Assembly: GCF_000293885.2 (NCBI RefSeq)
Contig: NZ_CP010945.1
Span: forward strand, 1,384,001-1,448,000
Origin: Pseudomonas fluorescens NCIMB 11764
GTDB lineage: Bacteria; Pseudomonadota; Gammaproteobacteria; Pseudomonadales; Pseudomonadaceae
DNA: 64,000 nucleotides
Direction of reading: 5' to 3'
Shown here: piece after piece, positions 48,892 to 61,396 of the stretch
Numbering within the stretch: position 1 is the stretch's first letter
Layout of the letters: each line of letters starts with the position of its first letter
Translations under genes and position numbers: made by a program
Notes under the pieces: model-generated
Seen by the model: the letters and a program-made list of their open reading frames with translations, nothing else
Database searches by the model: none
Told to the model about the DNA's origin: nothing

Positions 48892-49328
48892 TGGGCACCT
48901 CCGTTTTTTGGGCGATGGTGGGTGGTGACCAGTGAAGCAGAAATAAATTTGAACGGATTGATACCGGGCATTAGCAATCTCCTACATTAAGTGAGCGCTA
49001 CCACGTTCGTTCTCAGGCGAATGGGTGACAGCTGTGCGCAGGCTGAGAACCGGAAATGTAGGAAACCGGCAGACCCGAAGGTCTCCCACGCACAGCCGCC
49101 ATAACACGGAAATGCAGGCACAAAAAAACGCCGACAATCGTGATTTGGGGCGCTCGTGCGCCTACATATTACCCGGGTTCTCAGGCCCGGTCGCTGAATT
49201 GGCAGCGACGGGTTGAAGGTAGCTTGAGGGCTGCGGATGCGCAATCGTGGCTAGGTGGTGGCGTGGGTGGAAAATTTCAGGGTAGAGATCAGACGATCGA
49301 GCATTGCTCAGCTGTACGGCAAAGCCGT
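48892..49328. repeat. Stem-rich region upstream of the DUF3077 gene
   Basis: No gene is seen. TCGCTGAATTGGCAGCGA at 49191-49208 is a hairpin that nearly matches that at 12885-12902. CAGCTGTGCGC near 49027 and GCGCACAGC-like CACGCACAGCC near 49087 may pair over 50 bases, and TCTCAGGCGAATGG with GGCTGAGAACC makes a further stem. The region resembles others next to DUF3077-like genes. Confidence 0.5.
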
Positions 49329-49659
49329 ATGGTCGGGCTCATTTTCACGATTATCGAAACCGAAATTTTCAAGCGTTACGCTGAATCCATCTGGGGACGA
49401 TGGCGAACGCCATGAATTCATTACCTGGCTGGCGGCTAACCCGTTGGCCGGCGATGTGGTTCCTGGCAGCGTTGGTATGCGCAAGGTTCGTTGGTCCCGT
49501 AGCGGGATGGGCAAACGAGGTGGTACACGTGTTAGTTACTACAACACGCTTTCAGAAGGCTCTATCTGGTTGCTTATCGCCTATACCAAGGCGAAATTCG
49601 ACAATTTACCCGCAGCCTTCCTTAAGCAACTGAAGGAGGAAATCAGCAATGGTCAATGA
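49329..49659 (+). pseudogene. HigB/RelE-type toxin with a frameshift
   Basis: The gene reads MVGLIFTIIETEIFKRYAES then IWG in one frame and continues as DDGERHEFITWLAANPLAGD in the next. The rest (VRWSRSGMGKRGGTRVSYYN, SIWLLIAYTKAKFDNLPAAF) is a normal HigB-type toxin end. Four G bases at 49393-49396 where three would keep the frame explain the break, so one G has been gained or the read is wrong. The antitoxin downstream is intact. Confidence 0.82.
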
Positions 49660-49933
49660 ACTGGAGCAATTCCAGCAGGACTTGCTGGACTCTGTACGTC
49701 AAATGAAAGCCGGCAAAGCGGCTCGCGTGACAGAGGTGCCGCTGTCAGCAGCTGCTGAAGCGCGTGCCAAAGTGGGTATTTCTCAAAGTGCGTTCGCTAA
49801 ACTGATTGGAGTCAGTTTGCGAACGTTGCAGGATTGGGAGCAAGGGCGTCGGCAACCGACGGGTGCGGCGCAAACGCTGCTGCGTGTTGCGAGTCAGCAT
49901 CCTGAGGCTTTGCGTGACCTGCAAGCAGTCTAG
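49649..49933 (+). CDS. HigA-type antitoxin, Xre helix-turn-helix
   Basis: A 94-residue antitoxin. The helix-turn-helix is AAEARAKVGISQSAFAKLIG followed by VSLRTLQDWEQGRRQPTGAA. The N-terminal 35 residues are helical and probably contact the toxin. Its ATG lies 11 bases inside the toxin end with AAGGAGGAAATC as a strong ribosome binding site, so it can be made even though the toxin frame is broken. Confidence 0.9.
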   Translation: MVNELEQFQQDLLDSVRQMKAGKAARVTEVPLSAAAEARAKVGISQSAFAKLIGVSLRTLQDWEQGRRQPTGAAQTLLRVASQHPEALRDLQAV

Positions 49934-51839: not shown

Positions 51840-52682
51840 ATGAACACCCACGTCCACAAGGTTTTCCTGATTACCGGGGTCAGCTCAGGCTTCGGCCTGG
51901 CCTTTTCGCAAGCAGCGCTGGCGGCGGGGCATACGGTGGTCGGCACGGTGCGGCGCGAATCCGAACGTGCAGCGTTCGAGGCGCTGGACGCCCATCGCGC
52001 CAGGGCATTCGTGCTCGACGTCACCGATTACCCGGCAATTGATCCGTTGGTGGCCGAAATCCTGCGCGAAGTAGGCCGGATCGACGTGCTGGTGAACAAC
52101 GCCGGTTATGGCCATGAGGGGATTCTCGAAGAGTCGCCGTTGGCGGAAATGCAGCGCCAGTTCGACGTTAACGTGTTTGGCGCGGTCGCGATGATCAAGG
52201 CGGTTCTACCCGGCATGCGTGAGCAACGCAGCGGGCACATCGTCAACATCACCTCCATGGCCGGCTACATCACCTTGCCGGGCATCGCCTACTACAGCGG
52301 CAGCAAATTCGCCCTTGAAGGCGTCAGTGAAGCACTGGCCAAAGAAGTGGAAAGCCTGGGTATCCACGTGACGGCCATGGCTCCGGGCTCGTTTCGTACC
52401 GAATGGGCAGGGCGCTCGATGATTCGATCGGGCCGCGCTTTTAGTGAGTACGACGCGGTGTTCGATCCGGTCCGCAAGGCGCGTGAAGAGAAGAGTGGTA
52501 AGCAGGCGGGAGATCCGCACAAGGCAGCGCAGGCATTGTTGACCCTGGTGGCGGCAGAGAAACCGCCGGTTCATTTGTTATTGGGTAAGGATGCGGTGAG
52601 GTTGGTGCGGGAGAAGATTGCGCGGCTTGAGGCGGAGATTGATGCTTGGGAGGGGCTTTCTGAGTCGACGGAGTTTGACTGA
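51840..52682 (+). CDS. Short-chain dehydrogenase/reductase
   Basis: A 280-residue classical SDR with an intact active site: TGVSSGFGLAFSQAALAAGH for the cofactor, VNNAGYGHEG, the catalytic Ser in NITSMAGYI, and YYSGSKFALEG with Tyr and Lys. It belongs to the group with a longer C-terminal helix (EKIARLEAEIDAWEGLSEST). The substrate is unknown. It is the last backbone gene before the tRNA-Thr-linked islands. Confidence 0.92.
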   Translation: MNTHVHKVFLITGVSSGFGLAFSQAALAAGHTVVGTVRRESERAAFEALDAHRARAFVLDVTDYPAIDPLVAEILREVGRIDVLVNNAGYGHEGILEESPLAEMQRQFDVNVFGAVAMIKAVLPGMREQRSGHIVNITSMAGYITLPGIAYYSGSKFALEGVSEALAKEVESLGIHVTAMAPGSFRTEWAGRSMIRSGRAFSEYDAVFDPVRKAREEKSGKQAGDPHKAAQALLTLVAAEKPPVHLLLGKDAVRLVREKIARLEAEIDAWEGLSESTEFD

Positions 52683-53044
52683 CCGAACACTCTTGTCGCA
52701 TAAAAGATCAAACGGCAGAAACAACAAAGCCCTCGTATTTCTACGAGGGCTTCGTTTTGTATGGTGCGGCACCAGGAGTCGAACTGCAATTTAAGCTACT
52801 GTTTCAAAAACGATTTATCTGATGTGTAGTCTTTCAATATCTCTAAAATTATCCTTTTGCAAATTCCCCTCCGCTTTGTACGTTTTCGGTTAAATTTGAT
52901 CAGGTGCTAACATGTTATCGTAATGAGTGGCGACGCTTTTAGTTGCTGACAAGTCATTAGGGAGGGTTGATCATGCCGTAATCAACCCGGTTCTAACTCG
53001 ATAGCTGGAGGTGGCCGGATAAATCTCACGGATAGGAGTCAGCG
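52683..53044. other. Left island border region
   Basis: Apart from the direct repeat at 52716-52784 there is no gene in these 362 bases. From about 52790 the base composition becomes AT-rich, in contrast to the backbone, marking the entry into the island. Confidence 0.6.
52716..52784 (-). repeat. Left direct repeat: tRNA-Thr 3' end and its terminator
   Basis: These 69 bases match 59787-59856 with one base missing. They hold the stem AAGCCCTCG-TATTT-CTACGAGGGCTT and 23 bases of the tRNA T-arm/acceptor end with CCA (52762-52784). One base is lost in the acceptor (GTGCGGCACC for GTGCCGGCACC). It is an att-type border. Confidence 0.85.
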
Positions 53045-55216
53045 TTAAAGATATTGAATTGCTCGGTTCAGGAGAGTTTTTTCAAAATCATCAAATTTCG
53101 ATATGTAGAGACCCGGGTGCGATCTTACCTGCTCTAGGATTAAATCTACGGTGGCGTCCTCGCCGACGTTGCTAATTTGGTATATTTTTTGTGCTACACG
53201 AGTTGGTATTCCAAACTCTTCAAGAGCCACAATTGAAGGTGGTAAAAACATTGCTTCTAGAGAGTGGGCAAAAGCTGCGTAGTCGCCACAACGGTAATTG
53301 AATCGAGAAAATATTAAGCGCTGTACGTCGTTTATCGCCAAAATAATCTTAGGGAGGTTGTAGCCAATTAAGTTTCTTTTGAAATCGAAAACGCTTTGCA
53401 CTGCGTCATCAATCTCATATTCCGCGTTTCGTGGGGACCAAAAATCATATTCGCTTTGAATTAGATCTTTGTCTTCTTTTCTATTTACAATGTTGAGCAC
53501 TCTATAAAACAGCTGCTTTTTTGATTTGACGCATCCTCCGCCCATTCGTGATATTGCGAAGTGATCGAACATGATGTTGCATAGGTGTCTTAGTTGCTCG
53601 CTAGTTGGGAATTTTCCCGTCCATGCCATAATTGAGTTCCAGGCGCCACATTTCTCCATTAAGGCTTCTGCGAATTTTATTATCCTTTCCGGAGGAACAC
53701 CGAGATGCTTATTAAGTAAAGTGATAGGTACATATTGTTGAGTTGTATATCTCGATAAACTAGCCCTTTGTTCGGTGCTTAGCTCGTCGATTATGCTTAG
53801 CAGCATGGGTCTAGAGGCGGAGTCATCTTGAGTCACTATTGGGACGTCGATCCAAGGAAGCTCTGCTGATGGTTTTCGTCCAATAACATGTATATCTCCA
53901 ACAAAGTGTTCAAACATACGCCCACTACGTCCAGAGATATTGTTAAAAGTGAACGAATCCAGTTGGGTGGTCCCTCGAATACAGTCATCGTAAATTATGA
54001 CGCTTCTAGCATTTGTGTTAACACCCTCAATCAAAGTTGAGGTGCAAACCAAAATATTTATGAGCTTTTCATTGAACGCTTCCACCACATACCCGGAGAC
54101 GACACGAGGAAGTCTGCCATGGTGACAGGCAATCCCGCGTTCCACTGCGTCTGCCATCGACCAGTCATCGTGATATGTCTCTCTCAGCCAGTCAGAAAAC
54201 TCTCCTTTTCTTATCTCTTGGTTCTCTCTGAGTTTCATGATCTTTTTTACTAGCGAGGCTGCTCGTTTTGGAGTCTTGCAGTAAATTAAAGTCTGTTCGT
54301 TTTGACCGATTTTTTGCAAAATATTGACTAAGTGCGCGTCGCGATCAATGTCTTTTTCTTTATCATTCCCATCTTCACGGATAATGTAGCGATATTCGTT
54401 AGCTACTACAGTTTTGTAATTGTCATATTTTACAAAATTGCAATTTAGTTTGTCTTCTATGCCTTCGGCCAGGCCATTAATGTTGGGGCCGAGCATGTAA
54501 AAGCGACTGCACATTTTAAAAAGTTTGTGAAATGCCAGATTTAGTCTGTCGCTTCGATAGTCAGATGTATTGAGAGGTGCTAATTTGTAAAACTCATCGA
54601 TAATAAAGAAGTCTACTCGTTCAAGGTTCTTGCATTCCAAGACCCTTTCTTGAGTATAGATATATAGATTTTTTGTCGCTGGCTCTTGAGAGGACTGAGT
54701 GATTATCTTGTAGTTTTCTTTATATTTGCTAAATTTCTTTCGTAACTCATCCATCAAAGCTATGGTTGGGACTACTACCACAATGTTGTCGTATTCTTCA
54801 GAGCTGATGAGAGCATCTATAACTAAGCTTTTTCCGAAGCTTGTAGGTGCACTGAGTACGATGTTATCTCCATTTACAATCCTGTAATAAATCTCAGCCT
54901 GTTTTAGGTGGAATGTTATATCGCCAGCTATAGGCGACTTAAAAATATTCATCCTTATGCTGTCTTTCGACGTCATCAGATCTGGATCTAAGTACGGGAA
55001 CAAACCTAGCTCGGAAATCAATATGTTCAACAGACCATGAAGCTGTTTGAATTCCCCACGCCTCTCTAGGCATCTCAGCGTCAGGTCCTGAATCAAGAAT
55101 TGATTGTCATCATGTAAGTTGTATAGATTTATAAGTTCAACGAATAACCTTTGCCATCCGGTGAAAGCAGAGTTGTCGATTTGCTTACGAAGGTTGTTAT
55201 AAATTTCCGTATTCAA
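53045..55216 (-). CDS. Superfamily 2 helicase of the candidate system
   Basis: A 723-residue helicase, last gene of the operon. Walker A is SAPTSFGKS at residues 122-130, the motif II box is IIDEFYK at 205-211, an ATPase/RNA-strand motif CTSTLIEGVN lies near 395, and motif VI is NNISGRSGRMFEHFVG near 426. The SAPTSFGKS and SGRSGR forms resemble Ski2-like helicases and HamB of the Hachiman defence system. The N-terminal 100 residues and the last 280 match nothing I know. It starts with TTG overlapping the protease stop (TTGA), 9 bases after AAGGAG. Confidence 0.88.
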   Translation of the reverse strand: MNTEIYNNLRKQIDNSAFTGWQRLFVELINLYNLHDDNQFLIQDLTLRCLERRGEFKQLHGLLNILISELGLFPYLDPDLMTSKDSIRMNIFKSPIAGDITFHLKQAEIYYRIVNGDNIVLSAPTSFGKSLVIDALISSEEYDNIVVVVPTIALMDELRKKFSKYKENYKIITQSSQEPATKNLYIYTQERVLECKNLERVDFFIIDEFYKLAPLNTSDYRSDRLNLAFHKLFKMCSRFYMLGPNINGLAEGIEDKLNCNFVKYDNYKTVVANEYRYIIREDGNDKEKDIDRDAHLVNILQKIGQNEQTLIYCKTPKRAASLVKKIMKLRENQEIRKGEFSDWLRETYHDDWSMADAVERGIACHHGRLPRVVSGYVVEAFNEKLINILVCTSTLIEGVNTNARSVIIYDDCIRGTTQLDSFTFNNISGRSGRMFEHFVGDIHVIGRKPSAELPWIDVPIVTQDDSASRPMLLSIIDELSTEQRASLSRYTTQQYVPITLLNKHLGVPPERIIKFAEALMEKCGAWNSIMAWTGKFPTSEQLRHLCNIMFDHFAISRMGGGCVKSKKQLFYRVLNIVNRKEDKDLIQSEYDFWSPRNAEYEIDDAVQSVFDFKRNLIGYNLPKIILAINDVQRLIFSRFNYRCGDYAAFAHSLEAMFLPPSIVALEEFGIPTRVAQKIYQISNVGEDATVDLILEQVRSHPGLYISKFDDFEKTLLNRAIQYL

Positions 55217-56667
55217 AATTCGAACTCCTTAACAAATTTCGTATGTAACTCGTGTATGTTGTCGACCGGAAATAGAAAGATGCGGAGGTTGATCAAGGGA
55301 ACGATTCGAGCATTGTAGGCGCCAGCAACCCTTTCCCTGCACTCATCTATATCTTTTTGAAATGAGTTTGAAAAATTGCTTGGGTCATAATTATTTATCA
55401 AGTCTGCATTGCTTGATAAAAACATAGGTATAATTATCTTATCAATTTTGTCAGTTAATTTGAGGTTGGAGTTTGATAATTTTTCCAGCTTTTTTATATA
55501 CGGCCAAGTAGGGTCTAGTTCTGATAATATAACAACCAACCGGTCTTGGATTCCTCCGGAACGTATGATGGAGTCAACTCTGTGAATAGCCTCCTTTACT
55601 GTTTGCTCCATGGAAACCTCCATAGCAGAGATTCCAAGCCATAGCTCAACTTTGCCTCTATAAATAACGATATGCGAGCAGGAAAACACAGACTCGCCAT
55701 CTACCGTTATTACATTTGAAATAATAGGGATGGTTTTATAATTTTGGCGAATCGCGATGTGTAAGAATAAATCGGCCATTGCTGCTGGGTTGCCAATCTG
55801 GAAGTTTCTTTTTGCACTTTGAATTCTTTTGAAGTTGTGTTGCCCCAAAGCTTTTTTTTGCTTCGGGGTCAGCGCGTAGTCTTCGATCCAGTTGAGCGTT
55901 TGATCAATCAGGTTCTGACTGCGCCATTCGCCAAGATCAAATCCTATATCTAGTCCCTTTATGTTTGGATCCGAAGCGGCACAGTCTATTGAGACAACAA
56001 ATGGGCTTTCAGGATGGTCTGGCCTATCATAGGATATTTCGTCACCACCGGTTATAACCAACCCTTGGCTTTCAATGGCTTCAAGAGCGGATGGCCGTTC
56101 AAATATTGTATGGAAAGATACTGCTTGCAATGCCGATCCCACAGTTTGCAGTGCAAGCAAGCCAATAGCGTAGCCTTTAAAGAATACTGGCCCCCCGGAT
56201 AAGCCATTTGCTTTGTCTAGCTCAGCCGGCTTTCCAAACTCAAAGTCATATTTATATGTTGTAGAGAAATCAAAGACGTTTGATATTTTACTAGTTATAG
56301 GGAAATGCAATCTGCTTTTTTCGGCCGCGTACCCTATAGCTTTTACCTCATCATTCAGCTCAGCTTTGTATATTCCTATTTCAATTTTTGATTTGATCGT
56401 AAGGCTGTCTGATGACAGTATTGCGAAGTCAGTTTCTTTATCGTAAAAAACACATTTAGCGGCATGGAACTCTTGACGAAAATAATCATCTCTACTTTGG
56501 AAAATCCGAAGCGTGTAGGCATTTTTGACGACGTGCCAAGATGTAAAAAAAATAGACGCACCCACCGAAAAGCAACTGCCTGTTGAAATGGGTTCACCTA
56601 GGTCGTCATAGGCTTCTAGGATAAAGACGTTATCGAGTTTGTACTCGTCAGTCAGTGCATTACTCAA
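55213..56667 (-). CDS. Trypsin-like serine protease with extra C-terminal domain
   Basis: A 484-residue protein. The first 200 residues are a trypsin-like protease with a complete triad: His45 in FTSWHVVKN, Asp80 in TDFAIL and Ser157 in NGLSGGPVF. No signal peptide is seen, so it acts in the cytoplasm. Residues 220-484 form a second domain of unknown type, with KVELWLGISAMEVSMEQTVK at 339-358, which weakly recalls the nuclease core of HamA (DUF1837), but without its usual acid and lysine. The TTG start overlaps the hydrolase stop. It ends KEFEF. Confidence 0.85.
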   Translation of the reverse strand: MSNALTDEYKLDNVFILEAYDDLGEPISTGSCFSVGASIFFTSWHVVKNAYTLRIFQSRDDYFRQEFHAAKCVFYDKETDFAILSSDSLTIKSKIEIGIYKAELNDEVKAIGYAAEKSRLHFPITSKISNVFDFSTTYKYDFEFGKPAELDKANGLSGGPVFFKGYAIGLLALQTVGSALQAVSFHTIFERPSALEAIESQGLVITGGDEISYDRPDHPESPFVVSIDCAASDPNIKGLDIGFDLGEWRSQNLIDQTLNWIEDYALTPKQKKALGQHNFKRIQSAKRNFQIGNPAAMADLFLHIAIRQNYKTIPIISNVITVDGESVFSCSHIVIYRGKVELWLGISAMEVSMEQTVKEAIHRVDSIIRSGGIQDRLVVILSELDPTWPYIKKLEKLSNSNLKLTDKIDKIIIPMFLSSNADLINNYDPSNFSNSFQKDIDECRERVAGAYNARIVPLINLRIFLFPVDNIHELHTKFVKEFEF

Positions 56668-57788
56668 AGCTCAAATTCCTTTATGCCCTGGTGGATGCTG
56701 ATATTTCCTTCATAACTGTTGGCGTTGCTCAGGAAGGAGTTTGTGAGGTGGGGGATTTCGTGGTTTAGTAGTATTTTTGCCTCGCGGTCAGGAGAAAACT
56801 TAATGATTCTAGCTAAGGTCTCAATGTTAGGGTGTGAAAATTTATCGCCATTAGTAGAAATTAAATAGTTCGCAGTGCGTATTCTGCGTACTAAGTTAGC
56901 ACTAAAGTTATTTCGGCTTCCGTGATGGGGTAGCTTTACCGCATCAACTGTGATGCTATCTGCAGACTTCGAGTTCAACCATGCCTCTATAGTCTCTGCG
57001 TCGGAATCTCCGAGCATTAAAATGCTTTTGTTTTCAGTTTTTAGAAGGAAAGAGATGCTGCTTTTGTTTGGGGGTGATGTGTCATTAGTAAATGGTTGAT
57101 TTGCCAAATGCTCTATGTTTTCACTTAGACTTGAAATTTCCTCATCATGCTTTACTGAGGTATCAATCGAGCTGATAAAGCTTTCGAATGCAACGCTATA
57201 TCTTGGGCTGATAAGGCGTCTTTTGATTTCTTTACTTTCTAATAGTTCAAGCCATTTTTGTTGGATTTTTAACAAGCTCTTTCTGCTTGGGCCTATCAGT
57301 TCAATTTCAAATTCTCCTATTATTATGTTTTTATTAAGGCTCGTTCTGTGGATTTGCCTGCCTTCGGTTGCTTTATTTAAGGGGATATTTTGCTGCTGTA
57401 ATATTAAGGATAACGATGTGCCTTCAGAATACCCTATCAACTGGTCTTCGTCTCTAGACGTGGTGTTTGCTATGATTGCGGATAATTCTAGATCGTCACT
57501 ACGATCACCAATATCACAATCCTCCACATCTAGGATTTGGTTAATGCCATTGAAATAAACTTCTTTTACTTTAGTTGCGTGCTTTGATGTGAGCAGCTTG
57601 ATTGCTCCGCCAATATGGTCGTTATCAATATGAGTAACTATCAGGGCATCTAGCGTATCGACACCCTCTAACGAAGGCGACCAGTCAGCGAAGGACTTCG
57701 CAGTTCCACCATCCACTAAAATTTTGGTCGAGGCGCCGCTGATGAGAATTGAATCACCGTATGCGGCATCGTGCATGGAAATTTTCAA
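56664..57788 (-). CDS. ComEC-like metallo-beta-lactamase fold hydrolase
   Basis: A 374-residue soluble hydrolase, first gene of the operon. Metal ligands are seen in VTHIDNDHIGGA (His53, Asp55, Asp57, His58), LMLGDSDAETI near 256, KLPHHGSRNNFS near 284 and STNGDKFSHPN near 312, the pattern of the ComEC/Rec2 metallo-beta-lactamase domain, which degrades nucleic acid. No membrane segments are present. The start is a TTG at 57788 behind GGAAAG; an ATG four codons later is an alternative. It ends KEFEL, with the stop overlapping the protease start. Confidence 0.87.
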   Translation of the reverse strand: MKISMHDAAYGDSILISGASTKILVDGGTAKSFADWSPSLEGVDTLDALIVTHIDNDHIGGAIKLLTSKHATKVKEVYFNGINQILDVEDCDIGDRSDDLELSAIIANTTSRDEDQLIGYSEGTSLSLILQQQNIPLNKATEGRQIHRTSLNKNIIIGEFEIELIGPSRKSLLKIQQKWLELLESKEIKRRLISPRYSVAFESFISSIDTSVKHDEEISSLSENIEHLANQPFTNDTSPPNKSSISFLLKTENKSILMLGDSDAETIEAWLNSKSADSITVDAVKLPHHGSRNNFSANLVRRIRTANYLISTNGDKFSHPNIETLARIIKFSPDREAKILLNHEIPHLTNSFLSNANSYEGNISIHQGIKEFEL

Positions 57789-57997: not shown

Positions 57998-58279
57998 TCA
58001 GGCAATTGGTTTCCCGAACCATGATTTCCCCATACGTAGAGCAATCAGGTTAATTGTCAATTGATAGTAGTAGCGAGTCGCAGGGGCAGTATCTTTGATC
58101 TCATGTGCCAAAAACCAAACAACATGCTTTCGCTGCCACGTCCACGGATTGTCTAGCCTCCAGCGGTTAAAGATGGCTGCCTGAACGGTCTTCGCTTGAC
58201 TGATGTGGCGCTCACGCGTGGCGTGCGCGCCCGTCAGCATTCCGGTCAGAAATACTCCCATATCCAATGGCTTGGTCAT
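57998..58279 (-). CDS. Small integrase-associated protein of unknown function
   Basis: A 93-residue protein whose ATG overlaps the end of the integrase gene (ATGA). Segments are MGVFLTGMLTGAHATRERHI, AAIFNRWRLDNPWTWQRKHV and YYYQLTINLIALRMGKSWFG. It is probably a partner of the recombinase. I know no function for it. GC content is like that of the integrase, not of the operon to the left. Confidence 0.65.
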   Translation of the reverse strand: MTKPLDMGVFLTGMLTGAHATRERHISQAKTVQAAIFNRWRLDNPWTWQRKHVVWFLAHEIKDTAPATRYYYQLTINLIALRMGKSWFGKPIA

Positions 58280-59251
58280 GCTCGGCCTCCAATATAGGAG
58301 CCCAGCACGTCGACTCGCCCGTGTCCTAGCTCATAGCTGATTTGCATCCGAGCCTCTCGGTCAAGCTGTGGGTCAAGCCAGTTGCACCTCCCACCGTTAA
58401 CTGGCGCAGGATGACTGGTGATTTGTTCGTAGCGCTCACAGGCGTACGCCGCACGCAACTCATGAAATCCCCTAAGGTCGTGACGATGAAGGGGCGCGCG
58501 CCGGCCGCACCACGCTCCGGTGAAAATCAACGTAGCTCTCATTCTGCCCGAGCAGATTCCGGCTACCTGAGGGCGACACACCTGCTGCTTGGCTGAGCGC
58601 CTGACGAACATACTCATCCACATTGATCCAACGCGGCGCGGTGGCCCCACTGCGGCCGCCTTTGGTGCCGTCCTGGATATTGATCTTGCCGAGGGATTTG
58701 GCTTCACGCGTGAGACGCGGAAGGTCGGCCAGAATAGCTTCGCGCAATCGCATGCCGGTCGACCGTGCTAAATGGACGATGGCGGCTGCACGAGGATGCT
58801 GGTCTTGAAGCGCCTCGACGATTTGGGCCACTTGATCTCTATCCTGGCCCTGTGGCGCCAACACTCGAACGCTGGTCCGTTGCATCCCTAACGCCTTGCT
58901 CGGACTCTGCACTTTCACATACTGATCACCGCGAAGCGCAATCATGGTCCGGTTCACGCTGGACAATCTGTTCTGCGCCGTGGCGATGGCCAGGTCACCG
59001 CGCTCGACCAAACCACGAAGATGCATTGCATAGTCCGTCAACGTCTGCCGATCAATTTGCCGCGCGTCGTTAAACCCTGGTCCATCCTCCGACCTACACC
59101 ACCGAACAAACGCCTGCCACCGGTCACTATGCGCCTTGACTGTGCCGTAATGCCCACCGCCAAACAGATCACGTAGTGCCTGCGGCCCGGCATAGCTCAG
59201 TTGCCGTCCATAGCCAAAATTGCGCCTATCTCGCCTACCCACCAATCCCAT
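58276..59251 (-). pseudogene. Tyrosine recombinase (integrase), frameshifted
   Basis: The first part, from the ATG at 59251 (good AGGAG site), encodes DLFGGGHYGTVKAHSDRWQA, an N-terminal core-binding region, and STGMRLREAILADLPRLT with the first catalytic Arg. That frame ends at 58472. The end of the enzyme continues in another frame: RHDLRGFHELRAAYACERYE and ISYELGHGRVDVLGSYIGG, with the remaining catalytic His, Arg and Tyr. The break lies in a GCGCGCGCC run near 58490-58505. If real, the element cannot excise by itself. Confidence 0.82.
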
Positions 59252-59748
59252 GATCAAACTCCTCTCGAACCCAAAACCTTTGAAACTTTCCCCACGTCAT
59301 CCCGCCAAGAATGCTGAGTGTTATCAGGGATCAAGGCCCCTGCGACCTGTGAGGGTTGTCCACTAACGCGGGACTGGCGGCTCTTTACGACCGGGAGCTT
59401 GGGCATTTCATGATCTGGCCTCCTGAGCACTTCCGAGGAAGTGGGCGGGTGGAGGCTGCACTGGCTGACGAGACCAATGCCGCGAGAACCTGAGTCGGGT
59501 GAAGGCAGTGAGGCGATGACCGGGGCATGCCTGACTGTCAGTCAGGTGCAGTCCATTCCCTGGGCTGCGGCACCATCATCTGCATCGCTGTTGCTGGTGA
59601 CTTCGGTGTTTGTCACGCCGATTGTCGCGAGGGGAAATGCCGCAAAACCTTGTACGAGTTGGGCTGCAGCAGCGGTAGGAGCGCCCGTCTCTTTCCGGAA
59701 GAAACGGACGGGCGCAGGTTGGCGCAATGAAATGGCCAAGCGCGGGGT

Positions 59749-59772
59749 GGCAGAGCGCGGGTCACTAAGACC
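59749..59772 (+). repeat. Duplicate of the 3' end of the SDR gene
   Basis: This 24-base segment equals 51753-51776, the end of the SDR gene at 51062 including its stop codon. Such a piece inside the island border points to an earlier rearrangement. Confidence 0.8.
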
Positions 59773-59786
59773 GGTTCTCTAAACCC

Positions 59787-59856
59787 CAGAAACAACAAAG
59801 CCCTCGTATTTCTACGAGGGCTTCGTTTTGTATGGTGCCGGCACCAGGAGTCGAAC
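59787..59856 (-). repeat. Right direct repeat: tRNA-Thr 3' end and terminator
   Basis: The 70-base copy of the repeat at 52716-52784, with the full acceptor sequence. The stem at 59796-59830 has the form of a tRNA-gene terminator on the minus strand. Confidence 0.88.
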
Positions 59857-59877
59857 CCGGGACCTACTGATTACAAG
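59833..59877 (-). pseudogene. tRNA-Thr(TGT) 3' fragment (attachment site)
   Basis: Read on the minus strand, 45 bases match the end of tRNA-Thr from the anticodon loop (CTTGTAAT, anticodon TGT), through GGTCCCGGGTTCGACTCC to GGTGCCGGCACCA. The 5' half (GCCGGC..., D-arm) is absent. So this is an att copy; an intact tRNA gene is expected beyond the window on the right. Confidence 0.85.
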
Positions 59878-60049: not shown

Positions 60050-61396
60050 ATGGCATCGGTTATCAACGACCAGAAGCTTAAGGGGATGCAGCCTGAGGGC
60101 GCTCCCCTTACCGAAAGCTTACCTGGTCGAGGCATGGGGGCAATTCTCTTCAAACGTCCTGGCGAGGCACCGCCGTCAGCATACTTTCGCTACCGTCGAG
60201 ATGGTAAGAGCTATCTGGTGAAAATCGGGAGCTGCAAAACTGGAGCTCGGGGTGCCGGCCTTACATTACCTAAGATCCGTGAGCGCGCCTGGGAGCTTGC
60301 GAAAGTTGCCTACGAGCATGGCGATGTGAAAGCGCACTTAGCCTTCCTAGAAAAACAGGCTGAGGCAGAGAGGCATGCCAGCGAACTGGCTCTGGCTGAG
60401 CAGGTACGTCTGAGAGCTATCGAGGCCGCGCGCGGATCTTTAGCGGAGCTTTTTAATGATTACATCGACAGCCGGCGTGGAACAGTGCGCGAGTCGCAAG
60501 TCGCTGAGCTAGAGAGAGTTCTGCGAGTCGAGCTGGAAGAAGCAAACCCAGACGTTGCAGAAATGAAGGCTCGCGACGTTCGGCCGGGCCACATCAGACA
60601 GATCCTGCTACCGATCTGGGACCGCGGGTCGAAAGGGATGGCGGATAAGGTTCGTGCATACCTCCATGCCGCATATCAATACGGGCTGACGGCAGAGCAC
60701 TCGTTGTCTCGCACGAGCAGGAAGTCGTTTGCGCTTGAGCTCAACCCAGTAGCTCTACTGCCAAAGGAGCATAAAGCAACTGCACAGACCCGAGTGCTTA
60801 GCGACGCTGAGCTCAAGCATTTCTGGCAGACGATTACGCAAACTGACGAGGTGGGCCCTGTAATGGCCAGGCTTCTCAAGTTTGTGATCGCGACCGGGGG
60901 ACAGCGGATCGATCAGGTTTCCCGCGAGCCCTGGACGAGTTACGACAGCGAGAAGAGGACGCTCCGTCTGATCGACGCCAAGGGGCGTGGGGGCGTTCGC
61001 CGGGTCCACCTTATTCCGTTATCAAAACGCGCTATTGAACTGCTTGAAGAAGTAGAGCCGCTTACAGGCCGTCACGACTTTATTTGGACGACGACCGGAA
61101 AGAAACCTATTGCGACGACAAGCCCGTCGCATGCAGTGCGTGACTGGCTTGCCTCAAAGCACGGGAAGATCAATGGCGAACAGATCCCACACTTCACGCC
61201 GCGTGATTTACGCCGTACGTGCGCACAGCTGATGCAGCGCTACGGAGTTGAGAACCAGATTAGCGACTTGCTGCAATCACATGGCCAGACTGGTGTGGTT
61301 GGACAGCACTATCGCAATAATCCGGAGGCCTACTTACCCGAGAAGCTAAAGGCAATGGCTGGATTCGAAGCGGCTCTTAGTAAAGTGCTCGGCTAG
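60050..61396 (+). CDS. Tyrosine recombinase, phage/ICE integrase
   Basis: A 448-residue integrase of the P4/DUF4102 style. The N-terminal arm-binding domain has YFRYRRDGKSYLVKIGSCKT, a core-binding helical domain follows (GSLAELFNDYIDSRRGTVRE), and the catalytic domain has Arg in ATGGQRIDQVSREP, HFTPRDLRRTCAQLMQ and LLQSHGQTGVVGQHYRNN with the Tyr nucleophile. It lies next to the tRNA-Thr fragment as expected. Its stop overlaps that of the convergent replication gene through the palindrome CTAG. Confidence 0.94.
   Translation: MASVINDQKLKGMQPEGAPLTESLPGRGMGAILFKRPGEAPPSAYFRYRRDGKSYLVKIGSCKTGARGAGLTLPKIRERAWELAKVAYEHGDVKAHLAFLEKQAEAERHASELALAEQVRLRAIEAARGSLAELFNDYIDSRRGTVRESQVAELERVLRVELEEANPDVAEMKARDVRPGHIRQILLPIWDRGSKGMADKVRAYLHAAYQYGLTAEHSLSRTSRKSFALELNPVALLPKEHKATAQTRVLSDAELKHFWQTITQTDEVGPVMARLLKFVIATGGQRIDQVSREPWTSYDSEKRTLRLIDAKGRGGVRRVHLIPLSKRAIELLEEVEPLTGRHDFIWTTTGKKPIATTSPSHAVRDWLASKHGKINGEQIPHFTPRDLRRTCAQLMQRYGVENQISDLLQSHGQTGVVGQHYRNNPEAYLPEKLKAMAGFEAALSKVLG

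Follow-up and report, generated by a model that had tools for sequence, protein, structure and literature searches.

The three genes at positions 53045-57788 of the window, by which we mean the whole stretch of 64,000 nucleotides that was analyzed, almost certainly constitute HamMAB, a form of Hachiman equipped with a nuclease and a protease. They are most likely the very PflHamMAB locus of Pseudomonas fluorescens NCIMB 11764 (CP010945.1). HamMAB was published as nuclease-protease Hachiman by Tuck et al. (Science 2025; PMC12799240). The available part of that article states that the PflHamMAB test operon was taken from P. fluorescens CP010945.1, and CP010945 is the record of strain NCIMB 11764, a single contig of 6,998,154 bp (PMC4591305). 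The operon, which a preliminary description of this DNA had presented as a candidate new defence system, is real and was correctly spotted, but it is already named, tested, and explained, and is not new.

Gene layout and composition

The operon consists of three open reading frames on the minus strand, each overlapping the next by four bases. The gene hamM (56664-57788, minus strand) encodes a 374-aa ComEC-like MBL-fold pro-nuclease, as indicated by PADLOC, NCBIfam, and motif residues. The gene hamA (55213-56667, minus strand) encodes a 484-aa protein in which a trypsin-like protease domain is fused to HamA/DUF1837 (Pfam and PADLOC), and hamB (53045-55216, minus strand) encodes a 723-aa SF2 helicase (PADLOC and PDB). 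An MBL-fold nuclease gene placed directly upstream of protease-HamA and followed by HamB is the gene order of HamMAB. The G+C content of the trio was 0.408, compared with 0.601 in positions 1-48000 of the window. The coordinates, the gene order, the four-base overlaps, and the contrast between an AT-rich trio and a GC-rich host, all of which had been noted earlier, were reproduced.

Between positions 52500 and 58400, promoter-like sites showed no excess (9 versus 11.8 in shuffled sequences), and terminator-like sites were barely above the shuffled level (6 versus 4.8). All three genes start with TTG. The idea that these starts act as a conserved brake on all three genes was rejected, because the 12 positions compared in four relatives comprised one TTG, four ATG, and seven without a usual start codon; the hamB positions of three loci were counted off manually from the first aligned base. 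At those seven positions, the true start therefore lies elsewhere.

A protease-HamA fusion and a HamB helicase

The hamA product yielded two Pfam matches above the cut-off, Trypsin_2 at residues 30-169 and HamA (PF08878) at residues 252-466, and the PADLOC HamA model PDLC00169 covered residues 1-483 of 484 along nearly the whole profile (E = 7.1e-206). HamB matched the Pfam families DEAD and Helicase_C and carries the helicase GKS; it also matched the PADLOC models PDLC00193 (residues 155-723, E = 2.6e-259) and PDLC00180 (residues 7-721, E = 1.1e-225), and its nearest solved relative was chain B of PDB 8zue, "Anti-bacteriophage protein B" (E = 8.8e-90). On the basis of the Pfam and PADLOC matches, the second domain of the protease, which the preliminary description had listed as unknown, was identified as HamA and the helicase as HamB, as the suspected resemblance of the latter to the Hachiman helicase had implied.

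These matches bear directly on the reading of the trio as a new, unnamed MBL-protease-helicase defence system. The layout is indeed rare, given that trypsin-fused HamA occurred in only one or two genomes per sample of 369-398. However, the PADLOC models for HamA and HamB match over nearly the full length of both proteins, and the whole trio has been published with its mechanism. The view that this was no named system therefore fails with respect to novelty, and we consider a new system exceedingly improbable.

The protease triad is intact (His45, Asp80, and Ser157), as had been claimed from the DNA, and its His, Asp, and Ser were present in all 13 trypsin-fused HamA rows. The nuclease motif D-GEXK, by contrast, is gone from the HamA domain, where S replaces D and GISA replaces GEXK, so that the motif is not catalytically competent in sequence. 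Among 32 HamA rows, D-GEXK was kept in all 17 standalone proteins but in none of the 13 trypsin-fused and neither of the two Cap4-fused proteins. According to the available text of PMC12799240, about 5% of Hachiman systems have a HamA with a fused protease, and virtually all of these fusions lack D-GEXK.

hamM accompanies the protease fusion

We compared the neighbours of hamA in 18 loci besides the window by tblastn (E 1e-4, stretches of 3.9 to 13.4 kb). The results revealed that hamB adjoined hamA in all 18 loci, whereas hamM adjoined all four trypsin-fused hamA genes and none of the 14 others.

This pattern and the lost nuclease motif decide against a canonical Hachiman system with HamA as its effector nuclease and the MBL gene as a bystander. 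Such a system would agree with the HamA domain and the helicase, both of which match Hachiman families, and canonical HamAB of E. coli ECOR31 (Tuck et al. 2024; PMC12278908, available part) shares these two components with the window. In that system, however, HamA is itself the nuclease, and E138A,K140A ablates defence, whereas in the window the motif is lost, as it is in 13 of 13 trypsin-fused rows, and a protease and a separate nuclease are found instead. The MBL gene is a poor bystander, since it accompanies the protease fusion in 4/4 loci and other hamA genes in 0/14, and since mutation of the HamM active site abolishes defence in the experiments reported in the accessible portion of PMC12799240. 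The canonical reading thus has a vanishingly small probability, and HamMAB remains the preferred assignment.

Two genomes from the genus of the source strain encoded HamA fusions of another kind. In these proteins (L034:4980-6653 and L035:4191-5951), an N-terminal Cap4 nuclease is fused to HamA and the HamA motif is lost, which makes them AbpA-like Hachiman variants. AbpAB, called a Hachiman variant in the available part of PMC12278908, resembles the window operon in combining a helicase with a protein in which an N-terminal effector precedes an inactive HamA domain. It differs in that a Cap4-like nuclease takes the place of the protease, and no hamM was found beside the Cap4-HamA fusions L034 and L035.

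Genomes with trypsin-fused HamA were few in samples drawn from larger groups, each of which included the genome under study: the genus sample (398 genomes) contained two, the order sample (390) two, the class sample (369) one, and the phylum sample (398) two. The source genome contained one HamA match in all. Among 72,556 plasmid records, one (Plesiomonas) carried trypsin-fused HamA and one other gave a partial match; the phage collection yielded one partial HamA match. A pattern scan of the genome contigs with protease-HamA returned 22 pattern matches and no relative.

HamM and its expected cleavage sites

HamM carries HxDxDH at residues 53-58 and HHGS at residues 288-291 and matches Lactamase_B in Pfam, in agreement with the earlier claim of a ComEC-type MBL hydrolase. 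Its calculated mass is 41.5 kDa; the published HamM is given as 42 kDa in the available text of PMC12799240. In the window protein, Ile occupies residues 118 and 218, the sites after which cleavage would be expected. Among the 120 HamM matches listed (of 603), residue 118 was Ile in 112 and Val in eight, and residue 218 was Ile in 112, Val in seven, and Asn in one. The HxDxDH and HHG residues were kept in every listed row reaching them, with three rows gapped at HxDxDH. One entry (P0015) is the HamM of the window itself, with an identical sequence, and was left out as independent evidence.

The profile matches of HamM raise the question of whether the locus belongs to AVAST type 1 or to Lamassu. 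HamM matched the PADLOC models LmuA (1.4e-70) and Avs1a (1.6e-48), and the protease domain weakly matched the LmuA and Avs1b models. AVAST type 1 (Avs1a/Avs1b) also shares with the window the pairing of an MBL nuclease with a trypsin-like protease and cutting at a conserved Ile, as far as the available part of PMC12799240 describes it. Nevertheless, the match to NCBIfam Avs1a (8.9e-70) reached 235 bits, below the curated cut-off of 420 bits, as expected of a HamM that is no Avs1a. AVAST type 1 differs in the protein to which the protease is fused, which in the window is HamA, and in having an AVAST sensor in place of HamA-HamB; the third gene of the window trio encodes HamB, neither a STAND NTPase nor LmuB. 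An AVAST or Lamassu identity is therefore hardly credible, and the domain matches are better read as those of HamMAB.

Correspondence with PflHamMAB and proposed mechanism

Ser157 of HamA and Ile118 and Ile218 of HamM in the window are the residues numbered in published PflHamMAB. As described in the accessible text of PMC12799240, PflHamMAB has in common with the window its gene order, domain fusion, dead HamA, S157, I118, I218, and HamM mass, and no difference was found in the features compared (gene layout, motifs, and residue numbering). This agreement in numbering suggests that the trio is most likely the deposited CP010945.1 operon used in the published experiments.

The available part of the same paper reports that E. 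coli is no longer defended from phage EdH4 once the active site of any one of HamM, HamA, and HamB is altered, that S157A is protease-inactive, that protease-HamA cleaves HamM after I118 and I218, and that DNA is degraded by HamM with HamAB. It further describes insertions that gate the HamM active site and shows in vitro that DNA and ATP hydrolysis promote HamM cutting. In the authors' model, HamB would sense DNA, whereupon protease-HamA would oligomerise. As published for PflHamMAB, the trypsin-like domain on the dead HamA cuts HamM after Ile118 and Ile218; the cuts remove a pair of loops gating the HamM active site, and the freed HamM degrades DNA. The infected cell would die or arrest, again in the authors' model. 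The guess in the preliminary description that the genes form a coherent immune unit, with a protease that activates by cleavage and a hydrolase that cuts nucleic acid, is borne out in print for HamMAB, judging from the available text.

Chromosomal setting of the operon

The operon lies within a 7-kb segment bounded by tRNA-Thr 3'-end repeats at 52764 and 59835. The direct repeat measures 58 nt at 97% identity, with copies 7071 bases apart, and runs into the tRNA-Thr 3' end. The left copy (52710-52785) combines a terminator-like hairpin with a degenerate tRNA-Thr 3' end, and the right copy (59781-59877) combines the same hairpin with 43 nt of the tRNA-Thr 3' half. These 43 nt match the intact tRNA-Thr site (genome position 1489066) with zero mismatches. 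ARAGORN found no tRNA gene within the window; an intact tRNA-Thr(TGT) lies at genome positions 1489064-1489139, about 41 kb beyond the right end of the window. The earlier proposal of a tRNA-Thr island was thus right in essence, but the window itself contains just the two 3'-end repeats, the intact gene lying outside it.

Exact copies of the repeat hairpin in the genome numbered only two. In a relative lacking a HamA match (G005), the tRNA-Thr gene follows the same dehydrogenase gene at a distance of about 660 bp with a different sequence between them, and no clean empty site was found there. The same hairpin follows the dehydrogenase gene of G005, which suggests that the repeat hairpin may be of host origin.

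Between the repeats, a probably interrupted integrase gene occupies 58276-59257 on the minus strand, comprising an ORF (58472-59257) that matches PF12835 Integrase_1 (29.1 bits, cut-off 23) and an overlapping ORF (58276-58707) without a Pfam match. The ORFs of at least 80 aa that are clear of the trio comprise these shortened integrase and overlapping ORFs, a 93-aa ORF, small ones that overlap those just named, and one of 113 aa at 59441-59782. A second integrase gene (60050-61396, plus strand; PF00589 above the cut-off) heads an adjoining segment that extends from 59.8 kb to the intact tRNA-Thr. On the basis of the three repeats, the island seemingly consists of two segments in tandem. A scan that took in 12 of the larger ORFs of the second segment identified a Tn3 transposase and a TrwC relaxase, as well as Gabija GajA and GajB, Shedu SduA, and AbiD. 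The genes for these defence proteins lie at genome positions 1482243-1488615 (L015 and L016), about 34 to 41 kb to the right of the window end, and they mark the adjoining segment at tRNA-Thr as a defence island. HamMAB is consequently not the sole defence cargo of the whole island, and the statement that the trio was the only cargo does not hold, given both these genes and the other ORFs between the repeats.

Two further features were observed elsewhere in the window. On the minus strand at 49021-49222, an Rfam C4 antisense RNA (76.2 bits, gathering 45) lies beside its a1/b1 target family (56.4 bits, gathering 46.7); we take this pair to be perhaps a remnant of a P4-like satellite. At 49255-49933 are two overlapping small genes, of which the first has no sound match and the second encodes an HTH protein that comes near the NadS/MqsA families but scores under their cut-offs; to judge from their arrangement, the two genes may be a toxin-antitoxin pair.

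Integrity and significance of HamMAB

The gene hamB was split in three of the four other HamMAB loci (L026, L027, and L029), two of which are in draft assemblies, so the unit is not intact everywhere it occurs. In one case, on the Plesiomonas plasmid, the break was caused by an ISVsa5 (IS4-like) transposase gene, and in two cases it fell between two frames; hamM and hamA were each open in all three loci. That HamMAB is costly enough for hamB to be repeatedly lost while the nuclease-protease pair stays appears unlikely to us. If the loss of hamB is true and no assembly error, the remaining hamM-hamA pair would be either silenced remains or a pair with another trigger.

A reader of the raw sequence singled out a genuine defence operon and anticipated a good deal of how it works without recognizing that it was known, and the case can serve as a positive control. 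The present copy has the sequence features tested for the HamMAB mechanism, namely intact motifs, a lost HamA nuclease motif, isoleucines at the predicted cut sites, and the pairing of hamM with a protease-fused hamA. HamMAB, whose mechanism was published in 2025, is an example of a bacterial immune system that activates a pro-nuclease by proteolysis.
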